Both the position numbers and the translations under genes were made by a program. Positions 12,493-14,114 of a stretch of 64,000 nucleotides of DNA are shown here, one piece after another (positions within the stretch are counted from its first letter, which is position 1; each line of letters starts with the position of its first letter). Location of the stretch: the NCBI GenBank assembly GCA_022844565.1, contig JALHLK010000002.1, forward strand, positions 62,001-126,000, written 5' to 3'. The DNA comes from Saprospiraceae bacterium. GTDB lineage: Bacteria; Bacteroidota; Bacteroidia; Chitinophagales; Saprospiraceae. The notes beneath the pieces are model-generated. The model did not search any database and was not told where the DNA came from. It saw only the letters and a program-made list of their open reading frames with translations.

Positions 12493-13002
12493 TTATTCTT
12501 CTTCCTCACTTGAGTTTCCTGCAGCTGTAGCAGCTACTGCCGTTGCAGCTACACCCGAAGCTACTGCTCCTGCAGAACCTTTGCTACCTCTTCTTCCTCT
12601 CCTTGCAGTTTTGGCCGAAGTGGTTGTTGAAGTACTGTATGTATCATTATAATCTACGAATTCAATCATTGCAGTTTCAGCACCATCACCTAATCTAAAC
12701 CCTGTTCTGATAACTCGTAAATATCCTCCTGGTCTATCAGCAACTTTAAGAGCGATATTATCAAAAAGTTCTTTCACAGCATCTTTATTTCCAATTAAAG
12801 AAAATACAGTCCTTCTACTATGCGTAGTATTTTCCTTAGTCTTAGTGATGATTGGCTCTAGGAAAGTTCTCAAAACTTTCGCCTTAGCAAGTGTTGTATT
12901 AATTCTCTTATGCTCAACTAAAGCTATTGATAAATTTCTCATCAATGCCTTTCTGTGGCCTACCTTTCTGCTTAAATTGTTGTTTTTATTACCGTGTCTC
13001 AT
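12493..13002 (-). CDS. rplQ: 50S ribosomal protein L17
   Basis: Last gene of the ribosomal cluster. Residues 1-115 are a normal L17 (MRHGNKNNNLSRKVGHRKAL start, EHKRINTTLAKAK, FRLGDGAETAMIEFVD). The protein is 169 residues against about 120 in E. coli; the extra C-terminal 50 are low-complexity, first Arg/Ser (TARRGRRGSKG), then Ala/Val-rich, ending SSEEEE. Extended L17 tails of this sort occur in other Bacteroidota. It is separated from rpoA by 113 nt that fold into an unusual nested structure described separately. Confidence 0.97.
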   Translation of the reverse strand: MRHGNKNNNLSRKVGHRKALMRNLSIALVEHKRINTTLAKAKVLRTFLEPIITKTKENTTHSRRTVFSLIGNKDAVKELFDNIALKVADRPGGYLRVIRTGFRLGDGAETAMIEFVDYNDTYSTSTTTSAKTARRGRRGSKGSAGAVASGVAATAVAATAAGNSSEEEE

Positions 13003-13029
13003 GTTAAAAAAAAATTATCTACCACATGT

Positions 13030-13111
13030 ATCGTAAAAAGCTTCAACCCCAGCTTATTTTATTACGATTTGTAAGTAAAGTTTAAAAATTATATAATCCA
13101 TACGGGGTTGA
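13030..13111 (-). promoter_or_regulatory. rpoA-rplQ intergenic RNA structure, possible pseudoknot
   Basis: Two interleaved inverted repeats are present. ATCGTAA (13030-13036) pairs with TTACGAT (13062-13068). Inside that hairpin a second stem AGCT/AGCT presents TCAACCCC (13043-13050), which is exactly complementary to GGGGTTGA (13104-13111), five bases after the rpoA stop codon. In the minus-strand transcript the hairpin loop could therefore pair with the region just 3' of rpoA. This may control rplQ or process the mRNA; that role is inference. Confidence 0.5.
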
Positions 13112-13115
13112 GTGA

Positions 13116-14114
13116 TTAATCCTCTTCTAATTTATATTTAGATAAATCCATACCAAAGGTAAGGTTTTTGATAACTAAGAGTTCTTCAATTTCTACCAAA
13201 GACTTTCTACCAAAGTTCCTAAACTTAAGTAACTCGTGTGTGTCGAATTTAACCAATTCTCCTAAAGAATTTATTTTTGCTGCTTTTAAGCAATTATAAG
13301 CCCTAACACTTAAATCCAAATCTTCTAATGAAGTCTTGAGAAGTTTTCTCATGTGCAAAATATGCTCATCAACTACATTTTCTTCTCTATTAGAAGAATC
13401 ATTAAATGTTATATTTTCATCTGTTATTAACATTAAATGTTGAATAACAATTTTACTAGCCTCTTTAATTGCATCTTCTGGATGAATTGTACCATCCGTC
13501 TTTATTTCGATGGTCAATTTTTCGTAATCCGTTCTTTGCTCTACCCTTGTATTTTCTACTTTGTAAGCAACCTTTTTTATTGGCGTATAAATAGCATCTA
13601 TTGGAATCACACCAATTGGAGCATCCTTAGGCATATTCTCATCCGCAGGCACATATCCTCTACCCTTGGTAACAGTCAACTCTAATTCAAGACTCACACC
13701 ACTTTCCATAGTGCAAATATGTAAATTAGGGTTCATTACTTTAAAAACATTATTATATGTCTCAATATCACCTGCAACAAAGCTATCCTTTCCTGAGATG
13801 GTTAGATATATCTTCTCTTCTTGAGAATCCAGATCACTTAAAACTGATTTAAGTCTAACTTGCTTAAGATTCAGTATGATGTCTACTACATCTTCTACCA
13901 CACCTCTAATAGTTGCAAATTCATGATCTACACCTCCTATCCTTACAGCAGATATTGCAAAACCTTCTAAAGAAGATAACAATACTCTTCTGATAGAATT
14001 TCCTATAGTTTGACCAAAACCCGGTTCTAAAGGCTTGAATTCAAAAACACCTTCAAAATCATCTGATTTGTGAAGTCTAATTTTATCTGGCTTTATAAAA
14101 CTAAGTAAACCCAT
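13116..14114 (-). CDS. rpoA: DNA-directed RNA polymerase subunit alpha
   Basis: A 332-residue alpha subunit, the scaffold for beta and beta-prime assembly. The N-terminal dimerisation domain (about 1-230) includes FKPLEPGFGQTIGNSIRRVLLSS. The C-terminal domain (about 250-320) includes the helix-hairpin-helix LDLSVRAYNCLKAAKI and NFGRKSLVEIEE, used for contacts with DNA and activators. The length is normal. It follows rpsD by 57 nt, as in the alpha operon of most bacteria. Confidence 0.98.
   Translation of the reverse strand: MGLLSFIKPDKIRLHKSDDFEGVFEFKPLEPGFGQTIGNSIRRVLLSSLEGFAISAVRIGGVDHEFATIRGVVEDVVDIILNLKQVRLKSVLSDLDSQEEKIYLTISGKDSFVAGDIETYNNVFKVMNPNLHICTMESGVSLELELTVTKGRGYVPADENMPKDAPIGVIPIDAIYTPIKKVAYKVENTRVEQRTDYEKLTIEIKTDGTIHPEDAIKEASKIVIQHLMLITDENITFNDSSNREENVVDEHILHMRKLLKTSLEDLDLSVRAYNCLKAAKINSLGELVKFDTHELLKFRNFGRKSLVEIEELLVIKNLTFGMDLSKYKLEED

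Follow-up and report, generated by a model that had tools for sequence, protein, structure and literature searches.

What does the short stretch between rpoA and rplQ encode in this genome, and does it set the amount of ribosomal protein L17? In the window, by which we mean the whole 64,000 nt of DNA that was analyzed, both genes lie on the minus strand, which corresponds to the transcribed RNA, and are separated by a gap of 113 nt (13003–13115). An initial annotation had proposed a nested hairpin in this gap, with a loop that could pair next to the rpoA stop codon. We consider it probable (about 0.7) that this gap encodes a cis-acting leader of a ribosomal-protein gene, confined to Saprospiraceae as far as sampled, which would control rplQ by L17 autorepression.

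Structure of the rpoA–rplQ gap

The elements of the leader and the two genes around it are given below. Three alignments are mentioned: A1 covers the whole gap, A3 covers the hairpin domain, and the rows of A4 were selected by a descriptor of stem P1.

13116–14114, minus: rpoA, RNA polymerase alpha subunit (Pfam PF01000, PF01193, PF03118), the upstream gene
13104–13111, minus: 5' strand of the pseudoknot helix PK, UCAACCCC, 4 nt past the rpoA stop codon; its partner is the P3 loop
13098–13107, minus: P0, weak in the window, where it is no more than a minimal hairpin (CC-GUAU-GG) that overlaps PK (alignment inspection)
13095–13099, minus: GGAUU box after P0, seen by inspection of A1
13075–13079, minus: P1 5' strand, UUUAC (covariation in four of five aligned pairs)
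13071–13074, minus: 5' side of the internal motif, UUAC, family consensus UAAC (alignments, held-out gaps)
13062–13068, minus: P2 5' strand, AUCGUAA, an arm of the outer hairpin of the initial annotation (family covariation, single-sequence folds)
13051–13055, minus: P3 5' strand, AAGCU, the inner stem of the initial annotation (single-sequence folds, 26 homologues)
13043–13050, minus: P3 apical loop, GGGGUUGA, which is the PK 3' strand (column tests, parsimony)
13038–13042, minus: P3 3' strand, AGCUU (single-sequence folds)
13030–13036, minus: P2 3' strand, UUACGAU (family covariation, single-sequence folds)
13023–13025, minus: 3' side of the internal motif, GUG, invariant in A3 and A4, whose rows were selected for having GUG
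13018–13022, minus: P1 3' strand, GUAGA, which ends 15 nt before the rplQ AUG
12493–13002, minus: rplQ, ribosomal protein bL17, 169 aa (Pfam PF01196; best match among ribosome structures 7jil), the gene behind the leader

In the 5' half of the RNA, the rpoA stop codon is followed by 4 nt, the PK 5' strand, the GGAUU box, an AU-rich linker, P1 and UUAC. The 3' half contains P2, P3, the PK loop, the second strands of P3 and P2, GUG, the second strand of P1, 15 nt and the rplQ AUG. The hairpin ATCGTAA/TTACGAT of the initial annotation is found where it had been placed (13030–13036 and 13062–13068, plus strand coordinates), and its inner AGCT/AGCT stem may be extended to 5 bp (13038–13042 / 13051–13055). 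The loop TCAACCCC (13043–13050, plus) is indeed complementary to GGGGTTGA (13104–13111), 4 nt after the rpoA stop codon. The most conserved part had been missed: It is the outer stem P1, flanking 5'-U[A/U]AC and 5'-GUG. P0 is fuller by alignment inspection in several relatives, with CGAC/GUCG in L230, GACC/GGUC in L281 and CAAGC/GCUUG in L234.

The sequence of the window alone is not exceptional in its folding stability (z −0.98), and its minimum-energy fold without pseudoknots is the long-range helix, not the hairpin. Among 5,000 dinucleotide shuffles of the gap, an 8-bp Watson-Crick helix of any composition whose arms are separated by 30 nt or more turns up in 12%, and 3.5% have a hairpin (4 bp or longer) with a loop that includes 7 nt complementary to sequence further upstream. 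An 8-bp helix with at least five G+C is found in 0.04% of these shuffles.

A promoter inside the gap was considered and rejected: A Bacteroidota-type pattern has no match there (the rest of the window has 3, against 2.7 expected), and the only sigma-70-like match lies on the plus strand. Terminator-like hairpins followed by a T-run are present in the rpsD–rpoA gaps of several relatives (L009, L011, L002 and others, two of them from the genus of the window), so rpoA and rplQ perhaps form a separate transcription unit. Many loci also have long, imperfect inverted repeats, frequently made up of short repeated words, between the rpoA stop codon and the leader (L080, L087, L094, L108, L116, L122, L223, L266 and others).

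Helices in related genomes

The strong evidence for the proposed structure is comparative: Its predicted helices are maintained in relatives by compensating changes. The majority of the best 80 rplQ relatives with names are labelled Saprospiraceae or belong to genera placed there. Several of their gaps are identical to gaps in genomes of the window's family, for example that of Portibacter marinus L095 to that of L141, hence the name Saprospiraceae for this family. Column tests of PK were made on 26 gaps of the window's type, chosen partly by eye for the pseudoknot and aligned with MAFFT without pairing information. Rows misplaced by MAFFT, such as L011, L034, L038, L065, L095 and L102, were retained.

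Setting the PK 5' strand of A1 against the 3' strand of A3 gives 155 paired cells out of 182 (139 Watson-Crick), while 85 and 90 of 182 pair after a slide of one column. None of 10,000 row permutations reaches the observed 0.85 (permuted mean 0.70, maximum 0.81). On A1, PK and P1 together have 87.9% of their cells paired versus 76.6% in shuffles (0/500 as high) and at most 42% when slid; taken separately, the values are 84.0% for PK and 94.1% for P1. The covariation score is 0.520 versus 0.288 shuffled (0/500), with 45 cells changed on both sides versus 14.0 in shuffles. Relatedness may inflate counts of double changes, so they were also counted by Fitch parsimony on a rpoA+rplQ tree, with unpaired cells as missing and 50 random resolutions per pair: The smallest counts found are 17 for PK and 11 for P1. 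PK variants include GGCC/GGCC, replaced by GACC/GGUC, GACU/AGUC or GGCU/AGCC, and the window presents an outlying version, UCAACCCC/GGGGUUGA. In these 26 gaps of the window's type, PK covaries.

The initial annotation had called for a covariation check on related gaps, and had counted against itself any relatives that lack both helices or show changes in one strand without compensation in the other. Relatives of the window's type do neither, they keep the helices through compensating changes. This supports its suggestion of a pseudoknot or an either/or switch. PK and the hairpin may form together or alternately; nothing here demands a switch, since PK and the hairpin stems have no nucleotides in common.

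Further fully paired versions of PK, several of them followed by a small hairpin, are present in nine rows that belong to neither A1 nor A3, namely eight new gaps and L281, whose gap is that of L157. The strands were chosen by eye beforehand, so they are illustrations and not a count. A duplex-energy test of PK in 85 gaps gives no excess (9/85 within the top 5%, median rank 0.39), but it is uninformative because unrestricted bulged duplexes yield long spurious pairings. In a family-wide test of PK with the adjacent P0 hairpin, 71 rows have a mean of 14.2, versus 12.4 when shuffled (maximum 13.0) and 12.1 when swapped (maximum 12.9). This excess, modest because several rows have no visible pseudoknot and others give spurious helices, weakly backs a PK outside the window's group. 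No pseudoknot is seen in the most compact members of the family, though they keep the core described below.

Stems P1 and P2 together have 79.1% of cells paired versus 57.5% in shuffles and 26–55% when slid. In A3 the row of the window is shifted by two columns at P2, so this covariation supports P2 in the family and not in the window row. P3 varies in length and position between rows, and therefore its support comes from single-sequence folds instead of column covariation: With the PK loop left unpaired, the 26 domains have a mean z of −2.0 against mononucleotide shuffles, and 21 of them are below −1. The same variation in the lengths of P2 and P3 explains that RNAalifold predicts no pairs on A3. 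The 97.6% pairing in A4 is not counted as evidence, it arises by construction because the selecting descriptor already demands P1.

Distribution of the core among genomes

The core is defined as stem P1 directly flanking U[A/U]AC on the 5' side and GUG on the 3' side. A rpoA–rplQ gap is present in 139 of 140 loci, and 118 of these gaps remain once duplicates and gaps shorter than 24 nt are removed. A core with a P1 of at least 4 bp is found in 75 of the 118, versus a mean of 2.5 (maximum 5) in 30 rounds of dinucleotide shuffles. The compact members L276 and L278 form it around merely six nucleotides. A held-out set of 60 family stretches gave 59 gaps (L233 showed no rpoA), 11 already seen and 48 new. 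The core appears in 33 of these 48 versus a mean of 0.35 (maximum 2) in 100 shuffle rounds. The allowed GUG-to-AUG distance and the minimum loop were slightly wider here than in the distribution counts, for the real gaps as well as for the shuffles. L230, one of the 33, owes its inclusion to a misplaced P1. The other 15 fail the descriptor, some of them variant-like and three only 9–27 nt long.

In 109 core gaps, a few of which have P1 misplaced, the distance from the end of P1 to the rplQ AUG has a median of 19 nt, with quartiles of 16–26 and a range of 13–62. A variant group (L068, L080, L087, L088, L091, L104, L107, L127) has GUGG as P1 together with UAAC/GUG; between P1 and the rplQ start its members present CACCU...AGGU, which could fold over the start region.

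Counting distinct gaps, the core is found in 41 of 56 from family genomes and in 46 of 78 from the named collection. It is absent from 27 gaps of other families of the order and from 28 gaps of other orders of the class, sampled from the best-scoring loci (no more than 30 out of 71 matching genomes for the order and 30 out of 117 for the class, family members and G000 among them) plus a few from another search. Gaps in these order and class samples are shorter, with medians of 43 and 37 nt. When one descriptor is applied to the same 113 family and named loci, 74 rpoA–rplQ gaps have the core versus 2 rpsD–rpoA gaps, the median lengths being 121 and 102 nt. A mixed control, which adds other families and orders, also gives 2 cores in 163 rpsD–rpoA gaps, and in the window the descriptor finds nothing ahead of rpsM.

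Two models were used for searching 199 family genomes. R1, built for the window's type, has 17 hits at E ≤0.1, nearly all of them its own training rows, which include the window; 16 lie directly before rplQ, and the exception (E 0.031) has neither rpoA nor rplQ alongside. Genome-wide R1 misses the window's own leader at E 0.1. A search of the 64-kb window alone puts the leader on top (E 0.00078), but the window is a training row. R2, built for the compact type, has 53 hits at E ≤0.01, 52 before rplQ and one, in G093, elsewhere. Of the 52, 38 adjoin listed rplQ places, 12 more were placed by tblastn, and those in G014 and G016 by other searches. At least 25 of the 53 are training rows; 27 of the other 28 are before rplQ, and these 28 may include two further training rows, L064 and L066. 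No R2 hit is found in 146 of the 199 genomes, that of the window included, and 296 phylum-wide genomes give a single one, in a family member. Combining both models, 68 of 70 hits are in front of rplQ, and none at these thresholds is listed directly before rpsD. From the core counts, the same-locus control and the model hits, we conclude that the element goes with rplQ and is, in the genomes sampled, confined to one family. The initial annotation had placed it where L17 expression is set, which agrees with this tie to the front of rplQ.

Probable ligand, alternatives and proposed regulation of rplQ

An L17 leader candidate was proposed in 2020, reportedly by Eckert and Weinberg. It was predicted upstream of rplQ in Actinobacteria and Proteobacteria by comparative genomics, and L17 is its likeliest ligand on a basis given as 'Only', taken here to mean the sole ribosomal-protein gene regulated (PMC7247131). 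Our element is similar in its location upstream of rplQ, in being predicted by comparison and in having L17 as the proposed ligand. It is set apart by its phylum, and it has no relevant match in the Rfam copy searched, which perhaps lacks the published motif. The same source predicts S4 leaders in Bacteroidia and Flavobacteria and lists them for rpsD, rpoA and rplQ, so they should sit before rpsD (PMC7247131). They share with our element the phylum, the gene cluster and the kind of leader, but ours lies after rpsD and rpoA, before rplQ. Both of these S4 leaders are presented there as hairpins, while the predicted leader in the window's lineage is pseudoknotted.

The S4 site of the E. coli alpha operon is also a pseudoknotted mRNA for translational control, and the position of a proposed second S4 site is the same as that of our element; however, the pseudoknot in E. 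coli includes the ribosome-binding site of rpsM (PMC10931766). The L17 downstream element L17DE (RF01708), a proposed feedback element of Lactobacillales and Listeria, is also tied to L17 genes, but it lies downstream of them (PMC2864571). Our element is upstream of rplQ, and RF01708 does not appear among gathering-score or E-value matches. No Rfam family reaches its gathering score in the window, and below that score only unrelated matches are seen in the leader region and in 20 loci. Weak L20 leader matches (22–26 bits, gathering score 58.7) behind or near the 3' end of rplQ in three loci (L103:1903-2042, L036:1903-2048, L095:1945-2035) are probably due to chance. As the initial annotation had supposed, we found no description of a rplQ leader in Bacteroidota in open-licence papers, and a term search in the main text of a human microbiome survey found no mention of L17 or rplQ (PMC8040213). 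The element lies in an untranslated stretch directly upstream of a ribosomal-protein gene, with covariation in PK, P1 and P2 and single-sequence folds for P3. We class it as a probable new representative of the known class of ribosomal-protein leaders, with L17 as its predicted ligand.

The main rival ligand is S4, the regulator of the alpha operon, which might bind the element as a second site repressing rplQ. In E. coli, S4 represses L17 but leaves rpoA unaffected, and a further S4 site ahead of rplQ was suggested in 1984, though on no strong evidence (PMC10931766); S4 leaders are also predicted in Bacteroidia and Flavobacteria, as noted above. We regard S4 as unlikely, given that the rpsD–rpoA gaps of the same loci are almost devoid of the core, that the descriptor finds none upstream of rpsM in the window, and that nearly all genome-wide hits precede rplQ, the first gene behind the element. 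S4 might use a dissimilar site for its own gene. Somewhat less probable is a ligand-free processing or stability element, such as an RNase site or a protector of the rpoA 3' end, which would set the levels of rpoA and rplQ separately. Its position between two cistrons and the long inverted repeats before the core in many relatives would suit such an element, but the conserved letters of the internal motif and the narrow distance to the rplQ start fit a ligand-binding leader better, and the core is nearly absent from the neighboring rpsD–rpoA gap.

A transcription attenuator or terminator before rplQ is very improbable. The window does have a run of nine U closely behind P1, but a run of at least six is found there in just 7 of 109 core gaps, the stems of the window are AU-rich, and a terminator scan of the window finds none. 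As to mere chance complementarity in an AU-rich gap, the frequency of similar nested arrangements in single-sequence shuffles and the unremarkable folding score would allow it. We give it hardly any credit in view of the compensating changes in relatives, the recurrence of the core in held-out gaps and the further paired versions of PK.

Mimicry of 23S rRNA by the core was also considered, and no convincing case was found. In E. coli 23S, the strict P1/UAAC/GUG descriptor matches once (607/682; 1.75 expected from 20 shuffles), presumably near helices H33–35. Depletion of bL17 is linked to the folding of these helices (PMC10460392). In one complete Saprospiraceae 23S the homologous place has UAAG instead of UAAC, and its 3'-terminal hairpin, a candidate for H101, does not contain the motif. 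Matches of 107 leader cores are barely above shuffle level: 9.07 real and 8.71 shuffled for E. coli, 9.14 and 8.76 for the family 23S. In the latter, the best matches of 19 of the 107 cores cluster within a single 100-nt bin (700–799); they are not independent, because GAAAAGUGUU, near position 783 of this 23S (L217, reverse strand), is a stretch shared by several related leaders. This sharing of GAAAAGUGUU might possibly reflect mimicry. A search of the window's own assembly gives no 23S match.

Returning to L17 autorepression, the table of leaders in PMC7247131, as we understand it, names the ligand from the gene directly behind the leader. By this rule we infer that L17 is the ligand, since rplQ is directly behind ours. 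P1 with its internal 5'-U[A/U]AC / 5'-GUG motif would fold a short way ahead of the rplQ start; in the lineage of the window, P2 and P3 would cap P1, and the P3 loop would pair behind the rpoA stop codon. Free L17 would bind the P1/UAAC/GUG core and lock this fold beside the start codon, and the pseudoknot would stabilize the bound form. The locked fold would block 30S loading on a mRNA which relies on an unstructured start region and not on a Shine-Dalgarno sequence. In F. johnsoniae, structure around the start codon modulates initiation, and Bacteroidota do not have Shine-Dalgarno sequences (PMC6847099).

The pseudoknot might also sense rpoA translation, so that rplQ output would respond both to alpha synthesis and to an excess of L17. 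The PK 5' strand starts 4 nt past the rpoA stop codon, inside the footprint of a terminating ribosome. Ribosomes that often terminate there would thus prevent the pseudoknot from closing and let rplQ be translated; with little translation of rpoA and with L17 free, the pseudoknot would close. We find this addition unlikely: The PK 5' strand is 55–81 nt past the stop codon in the held-out gaps L229, L228, L225 and L227, and compact members show no pseudoknot.

In summary, this appears to be an undescribed RNA element which is common in one bacterial family. It bears on a question posed since 1984, which is the regulator of rplQ at the rpoA–rplQ junction. The compact members L276 and L278 point to a minimal RNA that could be used in binding and structural studies, and L17 autoregulation becomes directly testable in a phylum where initiation does not use Shine-Dalgarno sequences.
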